Assembly: GCA_021773095.1 (NCBI GenBank)
Contig: JAJFKR010000029.1
Location: 1-64,000 of the forward strand
Direction: 5' to 3'
DNA: 64,000 nucleotides
DNA from: Woeseiaceae bacterium
Lineage (GTDB): Bacteria > Pseudomonadota > Gammaproteobacteria > Steroidobacterales > Woeseiaceae
Part shown: one piece after another, positions 955-34,278 of the stretch
Position numbering within the stretch: position 1 is the first letter of the stretch
Layout: the number at the start of each line of letters is the position of its first letter
The notes under the pieces: generated by a model
What the model was told of the DNA's origin: nothing
Seen by the model: only the letters and a program-made list of their open reading frames with translations
Database searches by the model: none
Translations under genes and position numbers: made by a program

Positions 955-2106
955 ATGAGTGAGGCAACGACAGGTAAGTATGTCGAGACAACCGTAGCAG
1001 GCGAGACGGTGCGGGCATTTGTGCCAAATCCACTTCCGCCCAAGCTGACAAAAGAAGACCTGGCCTCGCTACAAGAGCCGATCGGTGCTGCCGAGACAGC
1101 ATTGGAACGGCTCCGATCGGCCGGCGAAATGATCCCATCCATGGATTGGTTCGTCTATTCGTTCGTCCGCAAGGAAGCCTTGCTGACTTCAGAAATCGAG
1201 GGCACCCAAGCCACACTCGCGGACGTCATGTCGTATGAGCAAACCGGACAATCCGGTTCCTCTGATATTGCCGATGTGGAGGAGGTTACCAACTACGTTC
1301 GCGCAGCAAATTACGCTTTCGAGCAGCTGAGTTCAGAAAAAGGTCTACCCGTTTCATCAAGGCTCCTAGACGAATGTCACCACCGGCTGATGCAGGGTGT
1401 GCGCGGGAAAAACAAGCAACCGGGTGAAATTCGTCGTTCGCAAGTCTGGGTCGGCGGCACCCGACCTGGCAATGCTGTATTTGTGCCACCTCCTTGGGAC
1501 CATGTCAGGGATCTATTAGGAGTGCTCGAGACCTATATTCATACCGATGATGATCTGCAGCCGCTATTGCGTATTGCCGCTGCGCACGCTCAATTCGAAA
1601 CCATTCACCCTTATCTGGATGGCAACGGTCGAATTGGTCGACTGCTCATCGCACTCTTGCTTGCACACTGGCAGATATTGGATGCGCCGCTCTTGTATCT
1701 GAGCGTTTACCTGAAAGAGCATCAGTCTGAATACTATGATCAGCTCGGCTCCATCAGAAAAAGCGGCACCTGGGCCGATTGGTTTCACTTCTTTCTTGAG
1801 GGAACAATAGAAGTCGCAACACTTGCCACCGCCACGGCCAGCGCCTTGAATCGGCAAGTGAATGACGACCGTAAGATTGTGATCTCGGCAGAGTCGGTTA
1901 CGGTGTCCACGATTCAGCTATTCGAAGCATTACCCAAGCACCCGGTAATATCAATGCCACTGGTCACACGCATCTTGTCCAGGAGTAAGCCGACCGCCAG
2001 CAAAGCAATAGATCTGCTAATCAAACAGGGCATTCTCACCGAGATCGGTGATCGCAAGCGAGACCGAATTTACAAATACGATAAATACTTACAAATATTG
2101 GAATAG
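955..2106 (+). CDS. fic: Fic-domain AMPylase (class II) with winged-helix tail
   Basis: Fic enzymes transfer AMP from ATP to a hydroxyl side chain of a target protein. The active-site motif HPYLDGNGRIGR is at residues 218-229 (Tyr replaces the usual Phe). The N-terminal part holds TSEIEG at 78-83, matching the [S/T]xxxE[G/N] inhibitory helix of class II Fic proteins, in which the Glu holds the enzyme off. Residues about 310-383 look like a winged helix (PLVTRILSRSKPTASKAIDLL), suggesting DNA binding. The length, 383 residues, is usual for the family. No clear Shine-Dalgarno is seen because an operator-like box occupies that position. The target is unknown. Decayed hsdM follows 4 bp downstream, a context in which fic genes are often found. 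Confidence 0.93.
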   Translation: MSEATTGKYVETTVAGETVRAFVPNPLPPKLTKEDLASLQEPIGAAETALERLRSAGEMIPSMDWFVYSFVRKEALLTSEIEGTQATLADVMSYEQTGQSGSSDIADVEEVTNYVRAANYAFEQLSSEKGLPVSSRLLDECHHRLMQGVRGKNKQPGEIRRSQVWVGGTRPGNAVFVPPPWDHVRDLLGVLETYIHTDDDLQPLLRIAAAHAQFETIHPYLDGNGRIGRLLIALLLAHWQILDAPLLYLSVYLKEHQSEYYDQLGSIRKSGTWADWFHFFLEGTIEVATLATATASALNRQVNDDRKIVISAESVTVSTIQLFEALPKHPVISMPLVTRILSRSKPTASKAIDLLIKQGILTEIGDRKRDRIYKYDKYLQILE

Positions 2107-2468: not shown

Positions 2469-3656
2469 CTAACTTTCTCGTCGCCTGAGCTGCGCCGTTT
2501 CAGCGTCATACTCGTACTCGCCGATTGTTCCGGCTCTAATTCTCTCAACAACTTGATCGATTACATGGATTGGCACGAAAAACCATTCTCGCGGGCGAAC
2601 TGGGTTACCAAATCGGTCGTGAATAGTCACGTCGAGCTGTGCAGAAGCAAAGATTCGGTGGATCAAATTTTCGAGCTTCGTACGACTGATGTTGTAAAGC
2701 TCGTACGTGGCAACCACCTCGACATCGGACATAAGAAATGTGGGTTGTAGTCTGGCCCCGGCAATCCTTTTTTCGACCTCTAGGTTGGTAACACCTATTT
2801 TATGGACCAAGTCTCGATTTTCAGCAATTAACGGAAGGTCGGACTTGCTCCGCAATACGTAAATGGTGCCGCTTGCTTCATCGTCATCGCTCGCCGCGTC
2901 AGAGAAGAGAGGACCAGGATCAGATTCTGTTATACGTCTACCCGCTTCGTCTTTGTTCAAACTGCGCTGCAACGACCGCATCAACATATTGCTCTCGGTG
3001 CCATTATCAAAGATGACGCGGAGGCGCGCGTCGGTCCGCCCCTGTTCATTCGTAAAGACATCGCCCTTTTCTGCTACGTACGCCTTTTGACCACCAACGA
3101 TGAAGAAGCGCCCGACCTCAATATCAGCTTTCAACTCGAAGGGCCGCGTCTCACGCATCCCGTCGTTTAGTTCGCGCTGGACTTTTTCAAACAGAGGCTT
3201 AAACTGATCGAAGTCAGTACATTGTTGACGGCTAGCAACCTCCTCGGCTTGACGCTTTTCACTGCTCGATCGAACGTGCTGCAATTCCGTAATATTTGCT
3301 GTTTCCTCGTCTACGTCGGATAGCTCTGAGAGAAGTTCTTCCTCGTCAATTTCCTCGACAGCAAGATTCGAGAACTCGGCATCCGCACCCAAAATGCCTT
3401 GATGATCGAGCGACTTCAGTGCGGATCGACATTCCTCTAGCTGGCGTAGCCGGTCCAGCCGCACCGCATAGAGTCGTTCAAATATATCGCGCTCCTCACC
3501 ATGTTGCGGAACCCTTCCGATTTCGTCGACAAATCGTTGGATGTCTTCGAAACCGGCAACGATCCGTTCTTCCCTCGGAGAGCGAGATGTCCGGGCTTTG
3601 GTTGTATCGTAATCGGCAAGCTCTTCGGCGAGCTGATTGAGGTCAATGTCAGTCAT
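2469..3656 (-). CDS. GIY-YIG (T5orf172-type) nuclease
   Basis: The start at 3656 (MTDIDLNQ) overlaps the helicase stop by 8 bp (ATGACTGA); an in-frame extension to 3722 is less likely. The protein is about 395 residues. The N-terminal two thirds are acidic and helix-rich, with no recognised fold. The C-terminal domain is a T5orf172-type GIY-YIG nuclease: TIYVLRS (GIY strand), LVHKIGVTN (YIG strand, here KIG), EKRIAGAR (catalytic Arg), SRTKLENLIHRIF (catalytic Glu) and the closing REWFFVP. It is the last gene of a three-gene operon with a helicase and a methyltransferase, so it is the likely cleavage subunit of a restriction-like system. Confidence 0.8.
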   Translation of the reverse strand: MTDIDLNQLAEELADYDTTKARTSRSPREERIVAGFEDIQRFVDEIGRVPQHGEERDIFERLYAVRLDRLRQLEECRSALKSLDHQGILGADAEFSNLAVEEIDEEELLSELSDVDEETANITELQHVRSSSEKRQAEEVASRQQCTDFDQFKPLFEKVQRELNDGMRETRPFELKADIEVGRFFIVGGQKAYVAEKGDVFTNEQGRTDARLRVIFDNGTESNMLMRSLQRSLNKDEAGRRITESDPGPLFSDAASDDDEASGTIYVLRSKSDLPLIAENRDLVHKIGVTNLEVEKRIAGARLQPTFLMSDVEVVATYELYNISRTKLENLIHRIFASAQLDVTIHDRFGNPVRPREWFFVPIHVIDQVVERIRAGTIGEYEYDAETAQLRRRES

Positions 3657-5706
3657 AGCGACCTTCTTTCTTGAACCTAACGAAGGCCGCAGCCCCCTCT
3701 GCCATGCGACATTCCCAAGCATCCGCAGATGTTGCCGAGGGTAACCTTCCCCGTTCTTTTTTGAACCGGTATGCGCGAGTGGCTAGATCCTTGGCTTCGT
3801 CCGGGGATAACGCAGTACGCCGACCCGAGATTATGGTTGCAACCGCCTTTAGGCTTTCTTCGTTCATTGTTTTGGCCAAGATCGCGTAGGCTTCACCGAA
3901 GGGGTTGATGCTATCGATCAGATCTATGTCAAGCTCCCGCACATCCATTGCAAATTTACGAACACCGTCGATCAGCGCGGTACTACTACCTTGCTCGCCT
4001 TCGTCACCTTCAACTACAGTCTCTTTGGCCTGCTGAACAATAGTAAAGGCAGCGATTGCATGCTGCCTCACTGCCTCTTGATCCCCTTCATCAAGTTCCG
4101 GATATTTGTCCCTGATGATTGCGCCCATCCGCATCTGTGTAAGTTCGGCGGGAACGAGTTCCTCGTCGAACAGGCCGCGCTCTACCGTTTTCTTATCCTG
4201 AACAAAAGCCGCAATAACCTCGTTCAGATCCTCCCGACAGACACGTTCTCCCTCTTGAGACTTCGGTTGAGCTAGTCCAGTGATCTCAATTTGAAATTGC
4301 CCTGTTTCTTTGTTGAAACCGACGTTCTCCCTTTTTGGATCATAGCCATCGTCTCCGTAATCGAAGCCCTCAACCGGGCCGTTCTGCGGCGTCTTCGGGG
4401 TAAAATTGAAGCGCGGTGCAAGGACTTGTTCCATCAGAAGACTGGCCGCAATCGCTTTCAGTGTGTCGTTAACTGCCTCTGTCACGGCCTCCTCGGAGGC
4501 GTCTGGCTCAGCGATAAGATTCGTGAAACGTGCGCGCGTCTTGCCCTTCGCATCCCGAGTCGCGCGCCCAATAATTTGCACAATCTCGGTCAGGCTCGAT
4601 CTATAACCAACCGTCAAGGCGTGCTCGCACCATATCCAGTCAAACCCTTCCTTAGCCATGCCGAGGGCGATAATGATGTCGACGTGATCACGGTTGGTCT
4701 TTTGGTCCGAATCTTTGAGAGCTGTGACGACACGGTCGCGTTTTGTCGAATCGTCGTCCACTATGTCGGCAATACGCAGAAGGCGCCCGTCCTCAATTTT
4801 CACAAGCTGAAATCCGGTATCGGGGTCTGTGCCCAGCCACTCGCCAAGCTCGTCAATGATGTGCTCAACCTCGCGGATTTTGTCCTTGGTGCTTTCGCGG
4901 GAGTTAACGCTTGGGATGTGAACGATGGTCTTCTCGTTCGTGTCGAGGACTCTAAGAATGTCGTCAGTGTAGGAACCGGAGTAAAAGAAGTACCCGATGT
5001 CGAGGGTTTTCAGGTACTCGTAGCCGTTCAGTTGCTCGTAATAGGTATAGGTAACAACATCGAATTTGGCTTCATCATGCGGAATCAGGACAGGCTCTGC
5101 ATCTCCCCGAAAATAAGAACCTGTCATAGCAACAATATGGACCTTGTCGCGCGAAATGAATTCATTGAGATGTTGCCCGAGCTTGTTGTCAGGATTCGCC
5201 GAGACGTGGTGAAACTCGTCAACCGCGATGAGGCGACCGTCAAACGACTCAGCGCCGAACTTGTCGACCGCAAACCGAAAGGTGGCATGGGTACAGACAA
5301 GGATTTGGTTATCGCTCTCTAGAAATTTGCCCACCGCATTGACTTTTCCGCCTTCCGCACCCGGCGCATTGCAAAGATTCCACTTTGGCTCAACTCTCCA
5401 GTCGGCCCAGAATCCGAAATTCGACAGAGGCTCATCATTGAAGCTCGCGCCGATCGCCTTTTCTGGCACCACGATCACAGCTTGCTTAACGTCCTGGTTG
5501 TGGAGCTTATCGAGTGCGATGAACATAAGCGCGCGGCTCTTTCCCGAAGCGGGCGGCGACTTGATCAGCAGGTATTGTTCTCCTCGTTTTTCGTAAGCAC
5601 GTTCCTGCATAGGCCGCATGCCAAGTTCATTCGAAACAGTTGAGCTGCCGTTCTGGGCATATGTGACCGTTACATGCGGTACGGAGATTCGTCCTTCATT
5701 GGTCAT
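3649..5706 (-). CDS. DEAD/DEAH-box superfamily 2 helicase
   Basis: This 685-residue SF2 ATPase contains Walker A in KSPPASGKSRALMF (about residues 48-61), a DExH-type motif II in IAVDEFHHV (about 147), motif III-like MTGSYFRGD, and motif VI IIGRATRDAKGK (about 380). Its likely role is ATP-driven translocation on DNA, like the motor of type I or III restriction enzymes, but it carries no nuclease domain that I can see. The start ATG overlaps the methyltransferase stop by 4 bp (5703-5706) and its own stop overlaps the GIY-YIG gene by 8 bp. This translational coupling implies that the three proteins work in fixed proportion. Confidence 0.88.
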   Translation of the reverse strand: MTNEGRISVPHVTVTYAQNGSSTVSNELGMRPMQERAYEKRGEQYLLIKSPPASGKSRALMFIALDKLHNQDVKQAVIVVPEKAIGASFNDEPLSNFGFWADWRVEPKWNLCNAPGAEGGKVNAVGKFLESDNQILVCTHATFRFAVDKFGAESFDGRLIAVDEFHHVSANPDNKLGQHLNEFISRDKVHIVAMTGSYFRGDAEPVLIPHDEAKFDVVTYTYYEQLNGYEYLKTLDIGYFFYSGSYTDDILRVLDTNEKTIVHIPSVNSRESTKDKIREVEHIIDELGEWLGTDPDTGFQLVKIEDGRLLRIADIVDDDSTKRDRVVTALKDSDQKTNRDHVDIIIALGMAKEGFDWIWCEHALTVGYRSSLTEIVQIIGRATRDAKGKTRARFTNLIAEPDASEEAVTEAVNDTLKAIAASLLMEQVLAPRFNFTPKTPQNGPVEGFDYGDDGYDPKRENVGFNKETGQFQIEITGLAQPKSQEGERVCREDLNEVIAAFVQDKKTVERGLFDEELVPAELTQMRMGAIIRDKYPELDEGDQEAVRQHAIAAFTIVQQAKETVVEGDEGEQGSSTALIDGVRKFAMDVRELDIDLIDSINPFGEAYAILAKTMNEESLKAVATIISGRRTALSPDEAKDLATRAYRFKKERGRLPSATSADAWECRMAEGAAAFVRFKKEGRYD

Positions 5707-8483
5707 TTCGCGTCTGCCTTTCGGTTCTGTATAGCAGCTGAATTCGTTACCATCTTTGTGTAAAGCTCGAAAATCTTCTCCAGCCGTTCGGTATCGTTCT
5801 TGAACCGTCGCCCGATAAAAGCTCTTTCAAGCACTTCGTCGTTGCGCTCGTGAGCGTCACGAAGAGTGTCTGGCATCGTCGCAGGATCGTAAAGGTCAGC
5901 AATTGTGGCGGGGAAGTGCGCTTCACGCGCGAGGAGAATGTCTTCTGCGGTGCGTGTGAGGTCGGTTTTGTTCTTTTCGGTGAGCTTTGGTAGCGGAAAC
6001 GTATTCCAGCCGAGCGTGTTGGAATATCGGAAATCTGTCTTTATCTTTCCGCAAACGGTGGAGATCCAGACAAGGTGGAGTCTTGAGGCTACAACCGACA
6101 AATTCCAAAGCTCAGCATTGTATAGGGCGTAAGCGGCGTTTGAGATAATTGCTCGCTCGTCTAAGAGACCTACTGGCAAGAAGTCGCGCGATTCACTCGT
6201 GTGAATAGGAACGACGATTGCCGGAGTGCTGGGGAACCCCTGTATCTGCCTAAATCGATGTGGGTATTCAGCCGCTGGACGTGTTTCTTTAGCTTTGCTT
6301 GCAGCTCGGAACTTACGAACATTCTCAAATCTGTCGATCAGCGCTGGAATCTTCTCAGCCTCACCTACTTCACTGTCATTGACCCAGATGCAGACGCGCG
6401 GACTTCCCTTTATGAATTCCGTTGACCCGTAGTAGAGCCTAAGAAAATGCGTCACTTCAGGATGAGCGCTCTTCAGGTCGCGAGCTTCACTCATGCTCAT
6501 AATAAGAAATCCGCCATCTGTCGGTTTGTTGCCCCAGTACATCGTAGGCCTGTCAGCGGGTGCCGACGATAGAGGCTCGACATAGGTGTTAGTACCCGCT
6601 ACGAGATATGCGTTGATGTTCTCAACTTGTGCAGCCAATGGTTCACCATTTGACGACTCGGACAATAGTTTCGGTTTATCCGATGTGGGGCGGGAAAGAC
6701 AAACTATGACTACTGTCACGCCTGCATTCTTAGTTGCCAAGTTCTTCCACTTAAAAGAAGTGTGGGCAAACTCAATTCTGAGACGTTCAGACAGAACGAG
6801 GGGCCAAAACATTGGAACTTGTTGTCCCTGGCATACTGAGTTTGTGGCAACAAATGCACATTTTCCGCCAGTCCGTTCCAGAAAATGCGCCCCTTTCCAA
6901 AACCAACCACAAACATAGTCAAATGACTTCCAGTACCTCGATATATCCGAGAACAAAGCTTTAAGGTCGGATTTTTGTTCCTTTTCCTGAGAGCTTAGGC
7001 CTGCATACGGTGGGTTCCCGCAGACATAGGTTTCTCCGCCTTCATTCTCGAAGTCGATCTCTGCCTGATCTAGTGGTGTTTCGAATAGATCGTCAGCTAC
7101 CAATTTGACGCCGGCACCTGTCGGGGGACAGATGCTCAACCAATCTATGTGTAGGGCGTTACCGCACGTGATCCAGTTCATCGAATCAAGTGGCAGAAAT
7201 TCTTTAAGCGCTTCCTGCTGCCCTCGGTAAAGGACATCACACTGATATTCTGCGATGATAAGTGCGAGTCGAGCGATCTCAGCAGGGAAATCATGGATCT
7301 CGATGCCGCGGAAATTTGTCAGCGGAATCTTCGAGTTTTTTTGCTCCTCGTTGCGTCGTCTATTGATCTCGGCCTCGATAGCTCGCATTTCTTTGTAGGC
7401 GATGACTAGGAAGTTGCCCGAACCACAGGCAGGATCGAACACTCGAATCTTGCCCATGCGCTTGCGAAGATTGAGGAGCTTACGAGTGTTGTCACCGGCT
7501 TCCCTAAGTTGTTCTCGCAGCCCGTCGAGGAATAAAGGATTTAAGACTCTGAGAATATTCGACACACTCGTATAGTGGAGACCGAGCGCACCGCGTTCTT
7601 CTTCATCGGCGACGGCTTGGATCATGGAGCCAAATATGTCCGGGTTGATCTTTGTCCAATCGAGACTGCCGATATGGAGCAGATAGGATCTCGCGATCTT
7701 CGTAAATTTGGGTGCGTCTGTCCCGTCGGAGAACAACCCGCCATTCACGTAGGGAAACTTGTCGGCCCAACGGGGGACACCCAGATTCCTTCGATCTTCC
7801 GGCCTGGTATTCATCGCTAGGAACAGCGTGCTAATAACTTCGTGCGTGTTTGATGAGTCACGTTCGCTCATCTGCGCAATTGCTGAGGTGAACAAGTCCT
7901 CGCCACCGAAAATGTCAGTGTCTTCGGCAAAGAAGCAGAAGATGAGCCGGGCCATGAAGTGGTTCATCTCATGACGGCGTTTGGCTGTGCCCCAGTCGGG
8001 GTTTGAGCGCAGCAGCTCTATATAGAGTTTGTTCAAGCGGGCGGTTGCTCGGATATCAAAAGCACTGTCGCGCACCTGCTTGACAGTGCTAATACCTGCA
8101 AGTGCCAAAAAGAAACCGAAATGGTCCGGAAATTCCTGGTAAGCGCATGCAACGGTTTCGCCGCTATTGCGGTCTTCGGCCTCAAAATCCGTGCCGTCAG
8201 TCGCGAGAATGAACTTCGCCCGCGCTTTTGCGGTACCGGGGCTGTTGCGGAGAGTAGTTAATGTATCGGTGACTTTGCCTTGCTGACAAACGGCAATATG
8301 AATGTTGTTGCGTTGCAGGACACCGTTTTCAATATCCGACGAATTGGTGGCGCCATTCTTTAGCCGCTTGATCGTCGTCGCTTTGTTTCCAAACGCTTCG
8401 AGAAAGGCATACGGAAAGGCTTCCACGTCAAACGGTTCGTCCGCAAGTGCGGAAATCGCTTCTTCGATTTCTACCGCATTCAA
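5703..8483 (-). CDS. MmeI-like class I SAM-dependent DNA methyltransferase
   Basis: This is a predicted N6-adenine DNA methyltransferase of 926 residues. Motif I is VFDPACGSGNF (about 348-358) and motif IV is CGNPPYAG (about 489-496), the NPPY class. The layout resembles MmeI-type enzymes: an N-terminal region, a helical spacer (MARLIFCFFAEDTDIF at about 175-190), the methyltransferase, then a target-recognition region up to about 830. I do not see a clear PD-(D/E)xK nuclease motif in the N-terminal region, so cleavage may come from the co-transcribed GIY-YIG protein. The start is a TTG at 8483: the frame has a stop (TGA) a few codons upstream and an AGGA lies about 9 nt before the TTG. It heads the three-gene operon. 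Confidence 0.88.
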   Translation of the reverse strand: MNAVEIEEAISALADEPFDVEAFPYAFLEAFGNKATTIKRLKNGATNSSDIENGVLQRNNIHIAVCQQGKVTDTLTTLRNSPGTAKARAKFILATDGTDFEAEDRNSGETVACAYQEFPDHFGFFLALAGISTVKQVRDSAFDIRATARLNKLYIELLRSNPDWGTAKRRHEMNHFMARLIFCFFAEDTDIFGGEDLFTSAIAQMSERDSSNTHEVISTLFLAMNTRPEDRRNLGVPRWADKFPYVNGGLFSDGTDAPKFTKIARSYLLHIGSLDWTKINPDIFGSMIQAVADEEERGALGLHYTSVSNILRVLNPLFLDGLREQLREAGDNTRKLLNLRKRMGKIRVFDPACGSGNFLVIAYKEMRAIEAEINRRRNEEQKNSKIPLTNFRGIEIHDFPAEIARLALIIAEYQCDVLYRGQQEALKEFLPLDSMNWITCGNALHIDWLSICPPTGAGVKLVADDLFETPLDQAEIDFENEGGETYVCGNPPYAGLSSQEKEQKSDLKALFSDISRYWKSFDYVCGWFWKGAHFLERTGGKCAFVATNSVCQGQQVPMFWPLVLSERLRIEFAHTSFKWKNLATKNAGVTVVIVCLSRPTSDKPKLLSESSNGEPLAAQVENINAYLVAGTNTYVEPLSSAPADRPTMYWGNKPTDGGFLIMSMSEARDLKSAHPEVTHFLRLYYGSTEFIKGSPRVCIWVNDSEVGEAEKIPALIDRFENVRKFRAASKAKETRPAAEYPHRFRQIQGFPSTPAIVVPIHTSESRDFLPVGLLDERAIISNAAYALYNAELWNLSVVASRLHLVWISTVCGKIKTDFRYSNTLGWNTFPLPKLTEKNKTDLTRTAEDILLAREAHFPATIADLYDPATMPDTLRDAHERNDEVLERAFIGRRFKNDTERLEKIFELYTKMVTNSAAIQNRKADAK

Positions 8484-8713: not shown

Positions 8714-9238
8714 CTATATATTTAGGTGACCACCAGTAAAATCAGCTTCTCTTAGCCTTGAGTATCTGTCGGCAGATAACAATAAGAGAATTGGACCCCA
8801 ATTGGTAGCACGAATTACTACTTTGCTACCGGTGTCCCATCCGAGCTCACGCATCACTCTTACGCCTACCTTTAGAGTTAACTGTGTTCTCTTCGTGTTC
8901 CAGGAAGCGCCAAAGTCGGACATCCGATCAGGCGCAGTAAGGACTACTGCTGTTGGAACGTCGTCGAGCATAGGTATGTCACTGGTTGGGCGAAGAGATC
9001 GGTATCCGAGAGCAGCATGGAATGGATGTCGCGATTCTTGATCGACCATGTCGCTCGGAGCACACAGCAGCTCGCCGGGGCATCGAATCAGGCCGATACA
9101 GTCAAATTCGTCGCGAGTATCAGCCCAATTTATCCTCTTCAATATACTGGCCGACAGACGCAGACGCGAGCCACTTTCAGAAATGGTAATCGATTCTGAA
9201 CGTAATGAATCAACATATTGTGGATTAGATTCCGACAT
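8714..9238 (-). CDS. Hypothetical protein, possible AbrB-like C-terminus
   Basis: I do not recognise this protein (174 residues from the ATG at 9238; a TTG at 9286 would add 16). The C-terminal part, LTLKVGVRVMRELGWDTGSK followed by VVIRATNWGPILLLL, reads like a small swapped-hairpin beta-barrel of the AbrB or phage-regulator kind, with a basic loop before it. The middle has the phrase GLIRCPGELLCAPSD. It is transcribed away from the small protein-metalloprotease-Dcd operon across an AT-rich 151-bp gap, so it could be that operon's regulator (inference). It may also belong with the methyltransferase operon on the same strand, 230 bp downstream. Confidence 0.55.
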   Translation of the reverse strand: MSESNPQYVDSLRSESITISESGSRLRLSASILKRINWADTRDEFDCIGLIRCPGELLCAPSDMVDQESRHPFHAALGYRSLRPTSDIPMLDDVPTAVVLTAPDRMSDFGASWNTKRTQLTLKVGVRVMRELGWDTGSKVVIRATNWGPILLLLSADRYSRLREADFTGGHLNI

Positions 9239-9389
9239 ACACCAATATATGGATTTCCGTTGATAAAAACGATAAAATATCCACAAATTTGCAGGATTTT
9301 TCTATAAATATCCATATATTCTGTCATGAAATCATTAACTAACGAGAAAGTTCTATTCCTGATAAAGTCTTACCGATGCAAGGTGGAAA

Positions 9390-9839
9390 ATGACTATTCG
9401 GTCTATTAGCTCGCGCGGCGATCCCCGAGTCGTATGCGGTCTGCTTGCCAAAGAAGTTTTAACTACGTTAGAGGCTCAGCGACTTGAGGCAGAGGATGAG
9501 TTTCTTATTAATTTGATCAGGCTCCTAGACATGTACCGATACGGTACGTTTAAGACCCGGCATCCTCGAGGCGTACTTGATCGGCGGCCAATTAAGAAAA
9601 GGAATCTATTAAAAAGACCAGATTCGATGCCCCGAGTGCAAGAATCGTTGCGGGCTGCCCATCACGCAGTATTTGGTGTGCAAAAAACGGAAGACGAAGT
9701 ATCAGTGCTCTTGACCGATATTCTCGAAAAATGTAGACCGAATGCGCCCAAAGAACCTACGCAAGAAGAATTAATTAGTATTCGTAATTTCCTGGAAGCG
9801 TTTCTTCATAATTTGGAAGAGCCGCAGCGCGGCGAATGA
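9390..9839 (+). CDS. Hypothetical helical protein, first gene of a three-gene operon
   Basis: This 149-residue soluble protein is of unknown function. It is highly charged and probably helical: residues 18-50 form an amphipathic stretch (LAKEVLTTLEAQRLEAEDEF), followed by a basic segment (RPIKKRNLLKR), and the C-terminal half is again helical (QEELISIRNFLEAFLHNLEE). I see no catalytic motif. A good Shine-Dalgarno (AAGGTGG) precedes the ATG. The HEXXH metalloprotease follows after 13 bp and the Dcd-like gene after that. In such an arrangement it could be an adaptor, a protease substrate or an inhibitor (inference). Confidence 0.7.
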   Translation: MTIRSISSRGDPRVVCGLLAKEVLTTLEAQRLEAEDEFLINLIRLLDMYRYGTFKTRHPRGVLDRRPIKKRNLLKRPDSMPRVQESLRAAHHAVFGVQKTEDEVSVLLTDILEKCRPNAPKEPTQEELISIRNFLEAFLHNLEEPQRGE

Positions 9840-9852
9840 CTAAATTCGGACA

Positions 9853-11118
9853 ATGTTGCAACCTCGTGAATTCCTATCTGAAGAATGCGACAACGTTGAG
9901 CGATCTCTGAACGAATGTTTGCAGCATAATTATGGCGCCAAACGTAGCAAGCAATTTTTTCATGAATGTCAAAGTCGCCTCAGGACGATAAGAGAACAAA
10001 TCGGGAAGGATTCCGTAGATTTACCTTCCCTCAAGCAACATGCTTTCGATATTTCCCGCCTTTCGAGCCTAATCGCGAGGATAGAGCGCTCACGCTTAGG
10101 TGAGTTTTCCTGGCCGTTCGCTGACGAACTGGAGAAAATAGCATCAGCTACCTGTCAAGGAATCTCTGGCGAGGATAAGCATTACCGAAACCCAATTTTT
10201 GCCATTTCAGCGGGTGGCGGACTTGATGCTTATCGAATTCATATCGAGCAAGATCCGGTGGACTTTTTCAATCAGCGAATATTCAACATCGTATTTCCTC
10301 GAAGCCTAAAGCAGCATGTGCTTTTCCACCCCATCTTGGCACACGAGGTGGGTCATGCCTCGTTAACCGCCCCAAGCATGGAAAGCGAGCTGATGAAACG
10401 GGTGTTCGTGTTTCTTGAGACAGGCCCATTCGAGGACACTGCCGTTTTTTCAGAGTGGTTTACTCAGTCGGGACTAGGTGACATCTCTGGATCGTCTGAC
10501 GATGAGCTCGATGACATGCTTGATTCGTGGGTTGAGGAGTGTTTTTGCGATCTCTTTGGATTATTGGTATTCGGCCCGAGCTTCTTGGGCGCACATCAAT
10601 CTCTTATTTGTGGTTTAGATCCTACAGGGCTTGATCCTGGCGATGAGCATCCTCCCAATGTTGTGCGTTATCATCTTCTGAGAACAGCGGTTGAAGTGTT
10701 GGGATGGAGCAAACATCCTGAACAATCGGGATTCTGGAGAGCTGTATCGAATTTCCCCCACAGCGTGCCAAAATGGGCTGAAGTACACACTGAAGAGTCG
10801 GTGAGCAACGCGCTAAGCGAATTGCAGGATGTACTTCAACCGCTTACGGTGGCGCTCTATCGGACGCCGGCTGACGGCGAGCTTCATGAGCTTACAAATA
10901 TGTTGAGGAAGGGCGTTCCGCCGATAGGGGCGAATATTAATAGCAAAGGTGTTGTCAATCTCAACAAAGTCGACTTTCGCACGATTTTATTCGCGGGTTG
11001 GCTTACATGGTTCAACGGAACTAACAAGAAACTGACGTTTTTCCAGCTTAATCAATTGTGCGGTCACGCAATACTTCAACAACAGGCTGTTCGTCTTTGG
11101 ATGGATCGACGATCATGA
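9853..11118 (+). CDS. HEXXH zinc metalloprotease, family not recognised
   Basis: This 421-residue protein has a zinc-protease motif AHEVGHASL with His164, Glu165 and His168. A candidate third ligand lies about 60 residues on in WVEECFCDLFGL (Glu228 or Glu229), giving a gluzincin-like HEXXH-E arrangement. The segment ISAGGGLDAYRIHIEQDP before the motif may be substrate-binding strands. No signal peptide or membrane segment is visible, so it should act in the cytoplasm, which is unusual for a peptidase outside toxin, stress or defence pathways. It sits between a small helical protein and a dCTP-deaminase-fold protein with short gaps (13 and 8 bp). I cannot assign a named peptidase family. Confidence 0.8.
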   Translation: MLQPREFLSEECDNVERSLNECLQHNYGAKRSKQFFHECQSRLRTIREQIGKDSVDLPSLKQHAFDISRLSSLIARIERSRLGEFSWPFADELEKIASATCQGISGEDKHYRNPIFAISAGGGLDAYRIHIEQDPVDFFNQRIFNIVFPRSLKQHVLFHPILAHEVGHASLTAPSMESELMKRVFVFLETGPFEDTAVFSEWFTQSGLGDISGSSDDELDDMLDSWVEECFCDLFGLLVFGPSFLGAHQSLICGLDPTGLDPGDEHPPNVVRYHLLRTAVEVLGWSKHPEQSGFWRAVSNFPHSVPKWAEVHTEESVSNALSELQDVLQPLTVALYRTPADGELHELTNMLRKGVPPIGANINSKGVVNLNKVDFRTILFAGWLTWFNGTNKKLTFFQLNQLCGHAILQQQAVRLWMDRRS

Positions 11119-11126
11119 ATAATTAA

Positions 11127-11753
11127 ATGGCAGTATTACCTAGACGCTCAATAGTTTCGCGAATACAAAAGGGCAACCTCGTTGTATCGCCAATTCTAGA
11201 TGATATGCAAATCGATTCCTGCTCGGTTGACCTGAGGCTTGGGACTGTGGCGAAGATGCCGCGCGCCCGGGGATTATCGCATGTTGATCCTAGACGACAC
11301 TCGGCTAACTCAACGGAGCATGAAATTGAGGAGGGTCGACGCCAGAAACTTGAACGCCACGAGATCCCGTTCGACGAAGAGTTCTTATTGCATCCAGGAA
11401 TGCTTGCGTTAGTACCAACTTTGGAGTGGATTGTTTTACCTCAAGATATCCAAGGCGTGGTAACTGCAAGGTCATCGTGGGCCCGAGAAGGATTGAATAT
11501 TGCGACCGCAACATTTATTGGCCCCGGTTATTGTGGAATCATTACTCTTGAACTTTCCAATCTCGGACAGATTCCGATCGCCTTGTTCCCAGGAATGCGG
11601 ATTGCACAGATTGCATTTCTAGAAATTGGAAAGAAATACGACAAGAATCCTAAGCGAAGTCAGTTCAGCCTATCCTTTGAACCACAGGCAGGAGATATCT
11701 CGCGAGATGACGATGCGTTCATCTTCGGGGGTGATCGACGTACTAATCGCTGA
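11127..11753 (+). CDS. dCTP deaminase/dUTPase-fold protein, divergent active site
   Basis: This 208-residue protein matches the Dcd family along its length: IDSCSVDLRLG (about 29-39), FLLHPGMLALVPTLEWIVLP (86-105), ARSSWAREGL (114-123), PGYCGIITLELSN (133-145) and ALFPGMRIAQIAF (152-164). Family members deaminate dCTP and/or hydrolyse dUTP as trimers. The catalytic Glu (Glu142 in TLELSN) and the Arg loop are present. The Asp that normally precedes PG(Y/F) in the metal/nucleotide site is Gly132 here, and the usual His residues before it are Ala and Thr. It may therefore bind nucleotides without normal catalysis, for example as a sensor (inference). It ends the operon, 8 bp after the metalloprotease. 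Housekeeping dcd is not normally in such a context. Confidence 0.85.
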   Translation: MAVLPRRSIVSRIQKGNLVVSPILDDMQIDSCSVDLRLGTVAKMPRARGLSHVDPRRHSANSTEHEIEEGRRQKLERHEIPFDEEFLLHPGMLALVPTLEWIVLPQDIQGVVTARSSWAREGLNIATATFIGPGYCGIITLELSNLGQIPIALFPGMRIAQIAFLEIGKKYDKNPKRSQFSLSFEPQAGDISRDDDAFIFGGDRRTNR

Positions 11754-12218: not shown

Positions 12219-13076
12219 TCACTCGTTCATACCCGTAACGAAATTGATCAGCAGGTCAGCATACTGACCCTCGTCGGCAAGTAATCCGGTTGAACCGCGC
12301 ATCATATCGGCCAAGAATTCGCCCTCGTCGCCACGGTCAATTTCCTCCTGAATAAATTGCCGCACATAATCCAGCGCGGCTCCCGGTGCCAATGACGAGA
12401 GGTCGCGACCCGCCAGGCGGCCGCCAATAGTTCCCATATCCAGGTCCCCTTCGTAGAGCGTCGCGTCTTCGTAGACGCGCATTTCGTTGCTATCCAAATC
12501 AACGTAGTAGCGCATTGCATAGGCAACGTCTTGGGCATCCGTTCTCTTGTAATGCTTTCGATCACGCCAACTAATAATCTTGAGCAGGATTAGAACAGCG
12601 GGGTGAGCAACCTTCAGGACGATGACAGGGTCGTCCGAGATTTGGCACACTATCGCGGTATCGAGTGCTTCTCGGAAGCCAAGTATTGAAATCTCTTTTT
12701 CAGGCTCATTCGGCCAACGATACTTGCCATCCTTATCCGCGATCGCACCGAATGGAATAATATCGATCCAGAGCTTGGAGTCTGGCAGGTCAAGTCGATG
12801 CTCGGATTTTGTTCGCGAAAACCCATGATCTTCGACCAGCGACGTGGTAATCGCTTCGAATGTGTCCCAAGTGTCGATATTAATCGCGAAGTCGATATCA
12901 GCAGTAGCGCGTTTGATCGGCAGCCCAAAAGTGGCGTGATAGATCATGTCTCGAGCCGTTGCTCCGACGACCAGCCAGTCAGCGCCTACCGCGTTCGCGG
13001 CTGTTGCGATGTCGTCATAAATAAATTGTGTAGTCGGGTCCACCTTATCGGCGATCGATAGCAGTGTGCTTTTCAT
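12219..13076 (-). CDS. AbiEii-like nucleotidyltransferase toxin
   Basis: This protein of 285 residues (from MKSTLLSI at 13076) has a nucleotidyltransferase core: [13 protein letters not shown] is the glycine-rich turn and [11 protein letters not shown] carries the metal-binding DxD, with a further acidic residue in LWIDIIPFG. It resembles the predicted nucleotidyltransferases (COG4849 type) that pair with AbiEi-like antitoxins in type IV toxin-antitoxin systems, where the toxin modifies a cellular RNA such as tRNA and does not bind the antitoxin. It overlaps the antitoxin gene by 32 bp, so translation is coupled. Confidence 0.8.
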
Positions 13077-14097
13077 ACAACATCCTCGCCGTTTCAATGG
13101 TTCGATCGTCACCGATGGCTAGCAAATCTGCGTAGACCACGATGAAGGGGGCTCGGTCCCCTTGAGTGGCATTTAACTTGAGGGGCCAAAAGGCCTTGAG
13201 CACCTCGACGTTGCCATTGGGGTCTTTTCGTAGTTTCAATTTGGCCACGACTCGGCCAGCCGGTGGATTGATATAAATTGTCGCTGTTTCCGGTCTGAGG
13301 TATCCGGTCATTCTTGCTGCGGCGACTTCGCCGCCCCACCAGGCGCCCAATTGCTCCAGATCCGTGTTCAGCCACTGATCAGTATCTTCCCCTGTGTATT
13401 TGCCGATGACGAGTTTCTCGCGGGTTGTTTCTATATAGGCGTCGGCCCACTTGTGGACGAGCTCATCGAATTTTCTGAGTCGACGGTGATCACCGATTGT
13501 CTGTAAGAAACCAAGCTCTTCAAGATCTTTGAACACATTTGTGATCGTTCCCAATGCCACACCCGTTACGTCAGCAATATGTCGGTACCTGGCATTCAGC
13601 AGGGGCCGATTGTCCAGAAGAGCAAGAATCAACTTCAGGCCGGCAGTTCGGAACGCGCGTGTCGGGGCTTTTGTCTTTCTTTGATCTACTGGGACTTTTC
13701 GTCCCGTGATGTGAATAAAGACATCTTCTAATTTGATCAACGCATTGCCGGCAGTGTCGAGATAGGGGATGTTCCTCTCAAACAGTGTCTCGCCCATCTT
13801 GGGATTGACGTAGTCGGTTGCGATCAGGGTTGGAAGCTCCGTCCTTTGTGTTTGAATGATGATCTGCCCCAGGTTAGCGCGGTCTAATCGGTGCTTTACC
13901 TCGACCGCGAACGGGCCGATGGTGCGGCCGTTGGGCATTCTTAGGTGAAGGAGGGCATCTGGAGCAGTTCTGTCAATCGCGTGAAGAGCCATAGCGGGCC
14001 GTTCCAGCTCCGGTTGAATTCCGGTAATTTGCTGAAAGGCCTCGATTGCCCGATCGAGAATAGTGGGCTTTGTCCCAGGTTTTCCCATTTTGTTCAC
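13045..14097 (-). CDS. AbiEi-like type IV antitoxin with winged helix
   Basis: This 350-residue protein starts with GTG at 14097 or ATG at 14088; neither has a clear ribosome site. Residues about 60-130 resemble a nuclease-like fold (FAVEVKHRLDRANLGQIIIQ). A winged helix follows (RHIADVTGVALGTITNVFKDL, about 190-215), then a C-terminal domain specific to the long antitoxins (COG4861 type). Such antitoxins repress their own operon and counter the nucleotidyltransferase. Palindromes at 14109-14125 and 14293-14309 lie directly upstream. It is longer than the compact AbiEi at 34319. Confidence 0.8.
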   Translation of the reverse strand: MNKMGKPGTKPTILDRAIEAFQQITGIQPELERPAMALHAIDRTAPDALLHLRMPNGRTIGPFAVEVKHRLDRANLGQIIIQTQRTELPTLIATDYVNPKMGETLFERNIPYLDTAGNALIKLEDVFIHITGRKVPVDQRKTKAPTRAFRTAGLKLILALLDNRPLLNARYRHIADVTGVALGTITNVFKDLEELGFLQTIGDHRRLRKFDELVHKWADAYIETTREKLVIGKYTGEDTDQWLNTDLEQLGAWWGGEVAAARMTGYLRPETATIYINPPAGRVVAKLKLRKDPNGNVEVLKAFWPLKLNATQGDRAPFIVVYADLLAIGDDRTIETARMLYEKHTAIDRR

Positions 14098-25053: not shown

Positions 25054-25779
25054 CTAACACAAAATCTGCTCAGCGAGACAATCCAGCCTTCGCTTCCGTT
25101 CTTGCCAATCAGGTAGTCGCCTGGTTAGCAACGCGTAGTATTCACTACTGTGATTGTGGTGTTTCAAATGACATAGCTCGTGGATGACAACATAGTCGAT
25201 ACACTGTCGCGGTGCTTTGACGAGCATGGGGTTCAGCGACAGCCGTCCTTGCGGTGAACAGCTACCCCATTGTTTCTTCATAGGGCGTAACCGCCACTCG
25301 GGTATTGCCTCGACCCAACGCAGATCGGGATATAGAGCAGCCAGTCGTCTTTCAAATACTTGCAGTGCTCGTGCCCGATACCAAATATCCAGCGCCTCTT
25401 TGACAGACGATGCGTTTCTATCCGGAACGGAGACAACGAGTTGTGCGCCCAGCAGTTTCACAACGCCGGCATCTCTTGTTGTTTTTCGAACCTTCAGCAA
25501 ATACCGCTTTCCCAGGTACCAGTGAGTTTCACCGCTCACATATTGTCGGTGTAAGGCATGGCGGTGGGTGGCTTCCAGCTTCGCTAGTTGGTTTCGGATC
25601 CAACGTGCGCGCTTAAGAACTGCCCGCTTGATTTCCGTGATTGGTGTCTGCGGCGGAGCATCCACGACCACACGCTGATCCGGTTGTACGTGGATGCGTA
25701 CCTTGCCGGCCAGGTTTTCACGGTAGCTTACGGAGAAAACCAGCGTGTTTTCCCCGTACGTAACCTGAAAGTCGCCCAC
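25054..25779 (-). CDS. M48/YgjP-type metallopeptidase of the R-M operon
   Basis: This 241-residue cytosolic protein has the zinc motif VIHELCHLKHHNHSSEYY near residue 195, which fits the YgjP/SprT-like (DUF45) family. The GTG start shares one base with the hsdR stop (TAGTG at 25779), so it is translated with HsdR. This family is often found beside type I restriction genes; a role in controlling the restriction complex is plausible but not shown by the sequence. Confidence 0.85.
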   Translation of the reverse strand: MGDFQVTYGENTLVFSVSYRENLAGKVRIHVQPDQRVVVDAPPQTPITEIKRAVLKRARWIRNQLAKLEATHRHALHRQYVSGETHWYLGKRYLLKVRKTTRDAGVVKLLGAQLVVSVPDRNASSVKEALDIWYRARALQVFERRLAALYPDLRWVEAIPEWRLRPMKKQWGSCSPQGRLSLNPMLVKAPRQCIDYVVIHELCHLKHHNHSSEYYALLTRRLPDWQERKRRLDCLAEQILC

Positions 25780-28700
25780 TAGCCGACTTCCCGCTTTACC
25801 AGTCCGACACGCGTGATATGGATGACCTTCTCGATAACCTCTTTGGCCTTATCCATCCCCATGGGTTTGAAGAATACCGGTAGCAGCGCCTTGGTGATGC
25901 TGGCCTCAATGCTCTGCGGGTTCAGGGAATGTTCGGCGACCGACCGGTCAACGACAGCATCCGTGTCGAGTGCGAGTGCGATCAAAGTCTCCTGATCGTC
26001 GCCACCGAGCACCATCCGAAAGACACCGTAGTATGCCCGTGCATGCGCCTTGTTCTGCAGGACTTCGGGGATGTCATCAATGGCACGTTCATCGAGCTTG
26101 TCTTCGAAAGCCTGGAACAGTGCGTATTGTTTTGCCGGGTGATCGAATAGCGCCTCGGCCTCGGCAATAGCTTCGCGCAGCAGCTCCGAGAATACCTTCT
26201 GCGCGTACGGATCGTCGGCCAGATCCTGTTCTATGGTTCGGCGCACCCGTGTTCGGATCAGGTCGGTCTCGTTGCGAGTCTTCTCTTCGCTCCAGTCATC
26301 GGGGCCCTGGCCCAGCTCCCCAACAACGTAGACGCCTTCAGATTCTTCGATACGTTCGCCTACGACCTGTTTGTCGACGAGACCGCGGATTTGCTGCTCG
26401 TATGCGCTGTAGTCGACCGTTTCCTGTGCGTCCTGCCGCGCGATCTTGCGGAGGTTTGTGAAATGGCGAAGATCGCGTTTGTACTCGTTGATCGTGGCCT
26501 CGCCGAAACTGCCGTCCTCGAAAAACGCGCGTGACGAAAGCGCAAGCTTCAGGCAAAGGCCATATTCTGTCAGCGCCTGATAGAAGTCTTCGCGCACCTT
26601 CTGTTTCCTGTCCCATGTATCGCCGTCATTATCTTCGGCGTATTCGGGAATCAGCACTTGCCGGTACTGCTCCATATCCTGTCGATTCTGCACACTGGCG
26701 AAGATCGCCCATAGCCGATCATGCAGCCCCGGCAGCCGTTTGTATTTCGTGCTCATTTGCGTGTACAGACCTTCGAGGTCATTGATGTCGTAGCCAGCCT
26801 GAGTGCGACTGGCCAGATCCTGGTATTTCTGAATCGAGGAATCAAGTTCCTCGAGGATGCCGCGGTAGTCGATCAACAAGCCGTATTGTTTTTGCTCATG
26901 CAAGCGGTTGACGCGTGCAATCGCCTGGATCAGCGTGTGTTCCTTCAGTGGTTTGTCGATGTACAGCACTGTGTTACGCGGTTCATCGAATCCGGTCAGC
27001 AGCTTGTCGACAACGATCAGGAGATCTGGAGAGCCTTCGGTGGCGAAGGCGTCGACCGTATCGCGCCCGTAGTCTTCTGCGTGCTGATTCGTCAGGCCAC
27101 CCTGGCCGACGTTGTCCTTCCACCATTGCAGTACCTCCGGCAACGTCGTTTCATCAACATCCGTATGTCCCTCGCGGCTGTCCGGTGCCGAGATGATGAC
27201 GGCACTGGTAACAAGCCCGGTCTCATCCAGATGCTTTTTGTAACGAATGGCCGCCGTCTTGCTTTCCGTTGCAACCTGGCCTTTCAGGCCGAGCCTGAGC
27301 TGTTTGAAATTCTCATCGAAGTGAATCGCGATGTCCCAGGCGATGAGTTCAATGCGAGCATCGGAACCGTAGACGGCACCTTTTTGCGCATACTTCTTTT
27401 TGAGATCGGCCTTCTGCTCATCAGACAGGCCCGCCGTAATCTTGTCGAACCAGTTGTCGATCGCCTCGGCATTGATCGTCAGGCTCGGCTCGCGCTCCTC
27501 GTAAAGCAGCGGCGTCACCGTTCCGTCTTCGACCGCTCTTTGCATCGTGTAGGCGTGCACAATGGGGCCGAACTTGTTCGTCGTCTTGTCGTTTTTTAAG
27601 AGCGGTGTGCCGGTAAATGCGACGTAGGCCGCGTTCGGCAGCGCTTTGCGCATGCGCTCATGGTTCTCGCCACCCTGACTGCGATGGCCCTCGTCGATTA
27701 GAACGATCAGGTTGTCCGAGGGATTGAAGCATTCGGGCTGTTTCGACGCGGTGTTGAACTTGTTGATGATGCTGAAGATGATGCGCTCTGTGCCCAGACC
27801 GATGCGCCGTGCGAGATCCTTGCCCGAGCGTACCTTGGCACGTTCACCTTCTTTCTTGCTAGCGATCTCGGAGCCGAACGCACCGCCCGACAGGAACGTC
27901 CTGGCGAGCTGTTTCTCCAGCGGAATGCGGTCGGTGACGACGATTACCCGGCAGTCCTTCAGCGTGGGGTGCAGCAGTAATGCTTTGCACAAGAACACCA
28001 TCGTGAACGATTTGCCCGAGCCCGTGGTGTGCCAGATCACGCCACCTTCCCGGCCACCGCTGCTGTTGCGTTGATTGATGCGCTCGATTAGCGCCTTGAT
28101 GCCGAACGCCTGTTGATAGCGGGCTGCGATCTTGCCAGCTTTCTTGTCAAACAGGATGAAGAAGCGCACAAATTCCAACAGCCGTTTCGGGCTTAGCAGG
28201 CTGATTAGCAGCCGGTCCTGCTCGGTGGTCAGTTCGGGTTGGCCCCACAGGCTCTCGAAGTAGGCTCTGGTCTTGGCCGGTTTGTCCGCGAACAGGGCGT
28301 CGACAGTATCATCTGGCAACGACTGCCTCTTGATCGCTGAAAAATGCTCCTCGCTGAATTCTTCTTCCCGCCACTTCGCCCAGAACTTGGCTGGGGTTCG
28401 GGTCGTACCGTAGCGGCCGTCCACGGCACTAATTGAAAGCAGCAGCTGACTGAAGGCGAACAAACTGGGGATCTCGTCGTTTTTCTGGTTTCGAATCTGC
28501 TGGCTGATGCCCTCGTCAACCATATTCTTGTTCGGATTACCCGAGTCCGGTCGCTTGGCCTCGATCACGGCCAGCGGCATGCCGTTGACGTAGCACACAA
28601 GATCCGGCCGTCGATGCCCGGTGCCGCGGGTATTCAGCACCTCGAGCTCCTCGGTGACGACGAAGCGGTTCGCCGAGATGTCGTCCCAGTCGATCAGCGG

Positions 28701-29078
28701 AATCGTTGGCGAGTGTTTCTTACCGTTAATGAACTCGGTCTCCGTCACGCCGAGTACGAGCTTGTTATAGAAGCGCTTGTTGGCCGGCAGCAGGCCCTCG
28801 TTGAGGCCGGGCGAGGCGAGGTCGCGGACGATGTTTTCAATAGTGCTCGGCGACAGCGGATACTCCTGACCTTTGTATTCGAACCGACGGGTCTGCAGGT
28901 AGGCGATCAGGTCGGCCTTGAGCAGCAGGTCGCGAGTGCTGCCGCGCTCCTTGAGACAGTCTTCGGCGGACAAGTAGCGCCAGCTGCAGGCGAGTAGCGT
29001 CTTCAGTGCCGGGATGTGGCTGCTGTATTGTTCGCGGGCTTCGGGAACGGTGTTTTCATTTATGTCGCTTAGATCCAT
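25779..29078 (-). CDS. hsdR: Type I restriction enzyme subunit R (HsdR)
   Basis: HsdR translocates and cuts DNA in the R2M2S complex. From the start at 29078 (MDLSDINENT, overlapping the Abi stop by 10 bp) the protein is 1099 residues. The nuclease is at about 155-180 (RRPDLVCYVNG, then AVIEAKRP: the PD-ExK motif). Walker A is HTTGSGKSFTM (about 350), motif II VLIDEGHRSQGG, motif III AFTGTPLL, motif V LLTGFDEP and motif VI IARVNRLH. All look intact. The C-terminal 250 residues form the helical part that docks on the methylase. Confidence 0.96.
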   Translation of the reverse strand: MDLSDINENTVPEAREQYSSHIPALKTLLACSWRYLSAEDCLKERGSTRDLLLKADLIAYLQTRRFEYKGQEYPLSPSTIENIVRDLASPGLNEGLLPANKRFYNKLVLGVTETEFINGKKHSPTIPLIDWDDISANRFVVTEELEVLNTRGTGHRRPDLVCYVNGMPLAVIEAKRPDSGNPNKNMVDEGISQQIRNQKNDEIPSLFAFSQLLLSISAVDGRYGTTRTPAKFWAKWREEEFSEEHFSAIKRQSLPDDTVDALFADKPAKTRAYFESLWGQPELTTEQDRLLISLLSPKRLLEFVRFFILFDKKAGKIAARYQQAFGIKALIERINQRNSSGGREGGVIWHTTGSGKSFTMVFLCKALLLHPTLKDCRVIVVTDRIPLEKQLARTFLSGGAFGSEIASKKEGERAKVRSGKDLARRIGLGTERIIFSIINKFNTASKQPECFNPSDNLIVLIDEGHRSQGGENHERMRKALPNAAYVAFTGTPLLKNDKTTNKFGPIVHAYTMQRAVEDGTVTPLLYEEREPSLTINAEAIDNWFDKITAGLSDEQKADLKKKYAQKGAVYGSDARIELIAWDIAIHFDENFKQLRLGLKGQVATESKTAAIRYKKHLDETGLVTSAVIISAPDSREGHTDVDETTLPEVLQWWKDNVGQGGLTNQHAEDYGRDTVDAFATEGSPDLLIVVDKLLTGFDEPRNTVLYIDKPLKEHTLIQAIARVNRLHEQKQYGLLIDYRGILEELDSSIQKYQDLASRTQAGYDINDLEGLYTQMSTKYKRLPGLHDRLWAIFASVQNRQDMEQYRQVLIPEYAEDNDGDTWDRKQKVREDFYQALTEYGLCLKLALSSRAFFEDGSFGEATINEYKRDLRHFTNLRKIARQDAQETVDYSAYEQQIRGLVDKQVVGERIEESEGVYVVGELGQGPDDWSEEKTRNETDLIRTRVRRTIEQDLADDPYAQKVFSELLREAIAEAEALFDHPAKQYALFQAFEDKLDERAIDDIPEVLQNKAHARAYYGVFRMVLGGDDQETLIALALDTDAVVDRSVAEHSLNPQSIEASITKALLPVFFKPMGMDKAKEVIEKVIHITRVGLVKREVG

Positions 29079-29992: not shown

Positions 29993-30023
29993 TACGCGAT
30001 CCCCGAAGCTGAATTATGGACAT

Positions 30024-30076
30024 AAAAAAACCGCCAAGGTTGCGCGATACCCGATAGGGCACTAAGCGTGGCGGTT
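30024..30076 (-). terminator. Rho-independent terminator inside the R-M operon
   Basis: On the minus strand AACCGCCA and TGGCGGTT pair around a 37-nt loop, and the right arm runs into seven T. It ends the half-S/hsdM/hsdS/yecA unit before abi-hsdR, so expression of the nuclease part could be separated from the methylase. Confidence 0.65.
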
Positions 30077-30158
30077 GTGTTGCACTCAGGTTCTCGCAAT
30101 ATGCCCACTCTGTCAAGTGACCATGGCTCAGATTGGGTGAGCGTCTGTACGATAACCA

Positions 30159-34165: not shown

Positions 34166-34278
34166 TCCAGTAGTAGGTGTTCTACGTCTTTTCGGGAGAT
34201 GTATTTTGCCGTCTTTCTCGAGAAAGTCAAGTAGTAGAGCGTCTATTACATAAAACATAAAACACTACTGTCTCGTTA

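Follow-up and report, generated by a model that had tools for sequence, protein, structure and literature searches.

The closest described relative of the locus analyzed here is the dnmA-yeeB-yeeC operon of Bacillus subtilis, in which, according to the accessible parts of two papers, dnmA (yeeA) encodes an N6-methyladenine (m6A) methyltransferase for GACGAG that is 38% identical to MmeI and has no nuclease motif, and is followed by yeeB for a superfamily 2 (SF2) helicase and yeeC for a T5orf172 protein (PMC7261158; PMC9973331). As cited in both, it was remarked in 2009 that MmeI homologues without a nuclease motif are flanked by helicase and endonuclease genes, and the 2020 paper relays the suggestion of 2009 of a Type I-like system (PMC7261158). 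A survey of 368 neighbourhoods in the 2023 paper gave the same gene order, and deletions of dnmA and of yeeB in V. crassostreae are cited there as raising sensitivity to some phages (PMC9973331). Here, we analyzed a 64,000-nucleotide stretch of contig JAJFKR010000029.1 from a Woeseiaceae bacterium (hereafter the window), which carries on its minus strand a methyltransferase gene, an SF2 helicase gene and a T5orf172/GIY-YIG gene, in this order and with overlaps of 4 and 8 bp (Table 1). This trio is a further member of the described but unnamed dnmA-yeeB-yeeC operon type, and judging from its sequence it is probably a restriction-modification (R-M) type defence operon with modification and specificity in a single chain, a separate motor and a separate nuclease, for which we infer DNA cutting.

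The methyltransferase is full-length, MmeI-like and free of the D-ExK nuclease motif, and the helicase gene and then the T5orf172/GIY-YIG gene follow it on the same strand, which is the composition, order and orientation reported for B. subtilis. The B. subtilis control genome matches PF20473 and PF10544, the likeness being one of family and published description rather than of protein-to-protein alignment. The B. subtilis copy differs in that its YeeB and YeeC are reported to lack C-terminal stretches and that it was inactive against three phages, and the relatives studied here often carry cargo genes between methyltransferase and helicase. A preliminary description of the window, made from the letters alone, could not match the layout to a named Type I, Type III, BREX or DISARM layout; that the layout is unmatched altogether was not supported, since it is that of dnmA-yeeB-yeeC. 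Its alternative, that the trio is an already named system, was half right: the operon is described in the literature, but neither PADLOC-DB v2 nor the literature searched gives it a system name. Run as the defence-system classifier that it had proposed, PADLOC scored the methyltransferase as a Type IIG restriction enzyme and offers no model that covers the trio. The overlaps that it gave agree with the coordinates, that of 8 bp with an ATG start of the third gene at 3656; the longest open reading frame (ORF) of this gene extends to 3722, but its 22 additional codons fall within the helicase gene. When starts are taken from the longest ORFs, overlaps of 8 bp recur in 37 and of 4 bp in 24 of 80 genome loci.

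The three genes form a unit. With the helicase as a marker, matches were found in 25 of 398 genomes of a phylum sample, and at least 559 relatives were confirmed in genome contigs, so that the trio is common and yet has no name in PADLOC-DB. The loci examined were 23 regions of the phylum sample (the other two matches being the window itself and G317, an E 2.5e-5 match to a generic helicase stretch) and the best 80 of the at least 559 genome-contig loci. The latter are all close (helicase identity 74–80%, against down to about 38–46% in the phylum sample), and the examined loci are related to each other, so their counts are not independent trials. A same-strand methyltransferase gene lay upstream of the helicase gene in all testable loci, i.e., those with at least 3.5 kb of upstream flank (68/68 from genome contigs and 19/19 from the phylum sample), and where at least 1.2 kb of downstream flank was present, a GIY-YIG gene lay within 250 bp downstream in 78/79 and 23/23, respectively, with a distance of 448 bp in the lone exception (L142). 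Two phylum-sample loci (L034 and L036) have about 7 kb of other genes between methyltransferase and helicase. The count of co-occurrence that the preliminary description had called for thus gave a near-obligatory association in a fixed order, and this order is beyond chance because it recurs wherever the helicase family is found with enough flanking DNA. Carriers among the best 80 loci include Pseudomonadota, Bacillota (Tumebacillus, Cohnella, Paenibacillus, and Fictibacillus), and metagenome-assembled genomes named as cyanobacterial, Nitrospirales and others.

The methyltransferase has all five MmeI Pfam domains (MmeI_N, MmeI_hel, MmeI_Mtase, MmeI_TRD, and MmeI_C), and MmeI (5hr4) was its sole relative in a PDB sequence search (E = 4e-147). 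Its S-adenosylmethionine (SAM) motif DPACGSGNF and catalytic GNPPY are intact, and D-ExK is absent, in line with the preliminary description, which saw no obvious nuclease motif. D-x(8-12)-ExK within the first 150 residues was found in none of 84 trio methyltransferases, as opposed to nine of nine solo MmeI-family proteins, which indicates that loss of the MmeI nuclease accompanies the presence of the helicase and GIY-YIG genes. The 84 are the window protein and 83 from the 99 loci with a match, proteins below 850 amino acids (aa) being excluded as split or cut by contig ends or region edges; for the solo set we took the nine proteins of the phylum sample that match PF20473 strongly and have no trio-helicase match within reach in their genome. 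In the trio proteins the D column is Q in 78/84, the E column is mixed and the K column is G in 79/84, while the SAM motif is identical in 83/84 and GNPP-Y/F is retained. When the strong PF20473 matches of the phylum sample (at least 190 bits, n = 31) were counted by hand, 22, including the window, lay in trios and nine were solo; the trio form is therefore the commoner form of the MmeI family in this sample.

These columns bear on whether the methyltransferase might cut DNA itself, as a Type IIG/IIL restriction enzyme whose nuclease site is non-canonical, with the two other genes as accessories. The PADLOC REase_MTase_IIG model PDLC03598 matches it over its full length (943.6 bits) and the fold of the N-domain is retained (MmeI_N, 6.6e-31); however, the nuclease columns read Q, mixed and G in nearly all trio proteins, and the accessible text of the 2020 Nucleic Acids Research paper reports DnmA to be without endonuclease activity under conditions used for other MmeI homologues (PMC7261158). 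We consider such an enzyme very improbable. As PDLC03598 scores the window enzyme as a full-length Type IIG enzyme, automated Type IIG counts probably include nuclease-less trio methyltransferases, and restriction enzymes would be overcounted accordingly.

The motifs of the other two proteins are conserved. The helicase has DEAD and ResIII Pfam domains, and its motifs GKS, DEFH, TGS and QIIGRATR are invariant or at least 97% kept among 101 sequences. No nuclease family was detected in it by Pfam, PADLOC or NCBIfam, searches that do not exclude remote nuclease folds, in line with the earlier statement that it has none. The third protein does end, as had been described, in a T5orf172 GIY-YIG domain (T5orf172, 4e-12; MUG113, 1e-14; Pfam). 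The operon itself and the earlier division of tasks are thus supported, with modification, motor and nuclease lying on three conserved proteins.

One could argue instead for an arrest mechanism like that of BREX, in which self DNA is marked by the methyltransferase and protection comes from the motor, which stalls or displaces the replication of phage DNA that lacks the mark. The GIY-YIG protein would then do no more than trim or bind DNA, and cutting would not be the protective step. The B. subtilis authors state, in the available part of their paper, that the action must differ from canonical R-M since the sites are not depleted in phages (PMC9973331), and in PADLOC the helicase weakly matches PbeA, and the methyltransferase the PglX/DrmMI models. 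On the other hand, at least 97% of 101 sequences keep the catalytic-type residues of the GIY-YIG domain, and no BREX or DISARM core protein was found by PADLOC among the ten window proteins around the trio. We consider such arrest unlikely.

A module of about 50 residues is shared by the helicase C-terminus (residues 627–673) and the GIY-YIG protein N-terminus (residues 19–68). The likeness was first spotted by eye and then tested by profile comparison, where hhalign gave a probability of 90.5% and E = 1.4e-6 for one comparison, and all twelve control comparisons with the remaining segments of the two proteins stayed below 1% probability. The 8-bp gene overlap cannot account for it. The module may be a common docking surface or a duplication, and it is not reported in the literature searched. 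Against the PDB, the module alone gave three weak matches, and the best of these, a coiled lectin neck, was not believed at 0.0023. PDB sequence searches with the helicase and with the GIY-YIG protein gave nothing usable. The predicted GIY-YIG model (mean predicted local distance difference test [pLDDT] 76, predicted template modelling score [pTM] 0.39) had no Foldseek match at E ≤ 0.001; its best matches, from the middle barrel, were eIF5A (5.3e-3) and EF-P domain I (0.024, template modelling score 0.61 to target), a weak hint that the middle part might be SH3/KOW-like. The helicase model was poor (mean pLDDT 65.5, pTM 0.43).

What varies most is the part that would read the target. Among 68 genome-contig sequences, mean pairwise identity is 0.44 in the target-recognition domain (TRD), as opposed to 0.74 in the N-domain, 0.71 in the spacer, 0.70 in the methyltransferase domain and 0.81 in the C-domain; in the same set it is 0.80 for the helicase (80 sequences) and 0.62 for the GIY-YIG protein (79 sequences). 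A TRD far below the other parts would be expected if targets diversify, and is taken as support for a restriction role: divergence is greatest in the target-reading part and the motor stays conserved, the pattern to be predicted for restriction systems selected for new targets. The literature searched does not report the TRD as the most variable part of this operon.

Patchy presence supports the same reading: the helicase is in one of 40 genomes in a search of relatives, in the 25 of 398 of the phylum sample, and in 264 plasmid records. The one genome is that of the window itself, the helicase being absent from the other 39 (24 of the same genus and 15 of the same order), and the trio has a G+C of 0.51–0.52, below the window mean of 0.547; recent acquisition is therefore likely. 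One annotated plasmid, a conjugative plasmid of Sinorhizobium americanum, carries the trio with cargo. The helicase was also found on 43 IMG/VR contigs, often edge-cut, of which 31 carry all three genes, nine helicase and GIY-YIG, and three methyltransferase and helicase. By contrast, 50,697 phage records yielded two contig fragments, each covering 23% of the helicase, so a phage-borne origin was rejected, and the trio travels as cargo of cells or proviruses and does not belong to the core genes of phages. In several plasmids of Acinetobacter baumannii only separate helicase pieces are matched (12–169 or 159–670), which, from the match listing, suggests an interrupted gene.

Retention and TRD divergence also bear on a reading in which the trio is a relic, the methyltransferase serving gene regulation as an orphan enzyme and the helicase and nuclease being carried along. 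In B. subtilis, methylation alters the expression of some genes, with no restriction or phage phenotype in the accessible portions of the papers (PMC9973331; PMC7261158). However, a relic should often lose the two downstream genes, and retention of the downstream gene in 78/79 loci speaks against this, as do the helicase and GIY-YIG motifs kept in 101 sequences, the variable TRD and the patchy presence. It is quite unlikely for the family as a whole, and may still hold for B. subtilis itself.

Taken together, we hypothesize that the trio divides among three proteins the functions which are fused in Type I and MmeI-type enzymes. The MmeI-like protein would act as the specificity and modification subunit, its TRD reading an asymmetric site and its methyltransferase domain marking an adenine on one strand so that host sites are marked; m6A methylation is reported for the homologue DnmA (PMC7261158; PMC9973331), and protection from phage for the V. 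crassostreae homologues (PMC9973331). At an unmarked site the MmeI-like protein would recruit the SF2 motor, which would use ATP to translocate along the DNA, and cutting would fall to the GIY-YIG protein. The complement of GACGAG has no A, and adenine marking is thus possible on one strand only. If the target adenine is on one strand, as in GACGAG, one daughter site would be unmarked after replication, and we therefore predict that cutting depends on a pair of oppositely oriented unmarked sites, or on some other check relayed by the motor. Type III enzymes follow such a two-site orientation rule.

Several points weigh against a restriction role. In the accessible text on B. subtilis, single deletions did not affect phages Nf, phi29 and SBS-phiJ, GACGAG is not depleted in phage genomes (observed/expected 0.97), and the authors call that copy a relic (PMC9973331); dnmA had no effect on plasmid transformation, and cleavage by any operon member was not found in those portions of the B. 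subtilis literature (PMC9973331; PMC7261158). In addition, the GIY-YIG protein is less conserved than the helicase, and neither predicted model yielded a confident partner or fold. If the trio does cut, it would offer a restriction machine with separately testable specificity, motor and nuclease, in which one could also ask by experiment how a system that marks one strand escapes cutting its own DNA once this has been replicated.

In relatives, the site of the 4-bp overlap holds a cargo slot, which is empty in the window. The gap between methyltransferase and helicase exceeds 150 bp in 50 loci, and same-strand genes fill at least 70% of it in 37 of these, 13 having no such filling cargo. In the filled loci, no more than 30 bp separate the methyltransferase stop from the start of the first cargo gene in 34/37, mostly with a 4-bp overlap, and in 26/37 the end of the last cargo gene is equally close to the helicase ORF. 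The cargo genes (loci L083–L162 and L029–L049) belong to several families and are exchangeable and translationally coupled. Among ten representatives, four had Pfam matches above cut-off (RhuM; AlbA_2/HATPase_c_4; DUF1016_N/YhcG_C; PDDEXK_4), and five had no Pfam match at E ≤ 0.01; ten scanned with PADLOC gave three strong defence-candidate matches (PDC-S05, PDC-S02, and PDC-S26) and one weak one. The slot is not reported in the literature searched, and PMC9973331 mentions that genes next to dnmA, as yet uncharacterized, might be additional members. As a control, 20 RhuM regions were taken from the top 25 matches (five being skipped as near a contig start or on a contig already chosen); six adjoin Type I genes, one of them exactly as hsdM-hsdS-RhuM-hsdR, and 14 had no Type I gene by tblastn with the window Hsd proteins, several being on short contigs.

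Accessory genes are a familiar feature of Type I loci, and the shared slot suggests that Type I and trio systems draw on one pool of accessory effectors. It is possible, though doubtful, that the trio represents a restriction type of its own, modular in build, with a one-strand-marking modification and specificity subunit, a stand-alone motor and GIY-YIG cutter that meet via the duplicated docking module, Type III-like two-site logic, and, as in Type I loci, a slot for effectors that are translationally coupled and can replace one another (RhuM, DUF1016/YhcG, Schlafen-AlbA_2, PDDEXK_4, and several families without a Pfam match).

In support of a defence role, the window is also rich in other defence genes, including a complete Type I locus with its own slot genes (Table 1). 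A Fic protein of the SoFic family (955–2106, plus strand; PADLOC SoFic, 364.7 bits; NCBIfam below cut-off) is convergent to the trio, and a helix-turn-helix gene lies at 366–653. Two AbiE-type toxin-antitoxin pairs (AbiEi/AbiEii) are found at 12219–14097 (minus) and 34319–35822 (plus). Upstream of the trio is a block of low G+C (0.47–0.48; 8714–11753) with a dCTP-deaminase-like gene (11127–11753); the ORFs at 8714–9286, 9390–9839 and 9853–11118 gave no Pfam, PADLOC or PHROG match.

Table 1. Coordinates of the trio, its parts, and the Type I locus in the window.
Feature	Position	Strand	Remarks
MmeI-family DNA methyltransferase (DnmA/YeeA-like), 926 aa	5703..8483	-	TTG start at 8483; MmeI_N, helical spacer, methyltransferase, TRD and C domains; nuclease motif lost
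MmeI_N domain, residues 1-159	8007..8483	-	D, E, K columns of D-ExK not kept as D/E/K
Adenine-methyltransferase domain	6681..7505	-	DPACGSGNF and GNPPY; Pfam, alignment
TRD, residues 630-834	5982..6596	-	varies most among relatives; mean pairwise identity 0.44
Methyltransferase/helicase overlap, 4 bp, ATGA	5703..5706	-	site of cargo slot in relatives; empty here
SF2 helicase/translocase (YeeB-like), 685 aa	3649..5706	-	motifs GKS, DEFH, TGS, QIIGRATR conserved
Helicase C-terminal module, residues 627-673	3688..3828	-	profile-similar to GIY-YIG protein N-terminus
Helicase/GIY-YIG gene overlap, 8 bp, ATGACTGA	3649..3656	-	holds if third gene starts at ATG 3656
GIY-YIG nuclease family protein (YeeC-like), 395 aa	2469..3656	-	ATG at 3656; Pfam
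GIY-YIG protein N-terminal module, residues 19-68	3453..3602	-	shared with helicase C-terminus
T5orf172/GIY-YIG domain	2535..2870	-	Y266, K286, G288, R297, E329, H333 each at least 97% conserved, 101 sequences
Type I R-M locus, complete	25779-33584	-	hsdM 32061-33584, hsdS 30848-32077, hsdR 25779-29096
UPF0149/SEC-C protein, Type I S-R slot	30159-30851	-	PADLOC PDC-S12
Abi_2/AbiD, Type I S-R slot	29069-29992	-	
Short Methylase_S-like ORF beside Type I locus	33581-34258		

Compared with known systems, the methyltransferase shares five domains and nearly its length with the Type IIL/IIG enzyme MmeI (926 vs 919 aa), but the trio adds two proteins, and assignment to Type IIL/IIG was rejected as the N-domain of the methyltransferase chain has no PD-ExK motif. 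DISARM class 1 and BREX likewise combine a helicase with a methyltransferase (DrmMI and PglX, respectively) to which that of the trio is weakly related; however, the ten proteins scanned with PADLOC gave no match to the DISARM core (DrmA, DrmB, and DrmC) or to PglZ and BrxC, which in BREX accompany PglX, and both assignments were rejected. Type III R-M (Mod/Res) shares a ResIII-type motor and probably one-strand marking, whereas the trio methyltransferase is MmeI-type and no one-chain motor and nuclease is present, the helicase being DEAD/ResIII only as far as searches that leave remote folds open can tell; Type III was set aside as well. With Type I R-M (hsdM/hsdS/hsdR), such as the locus in the window, the trio shares specificity and modification, an ATP motor and a nuclease, as well as exchangeable defence-candidate genes between the modification and motor genes. 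Assignment to Type I was rejected all the same: modification and specificity lie in one chain, where Type I has HsdM and HsdS, and the motor and the nuclease are two proteins, with GIY-YIG in place of HSDR_N, where HsdR joins HSDR_N and SWI2/SNF2 in one chain.

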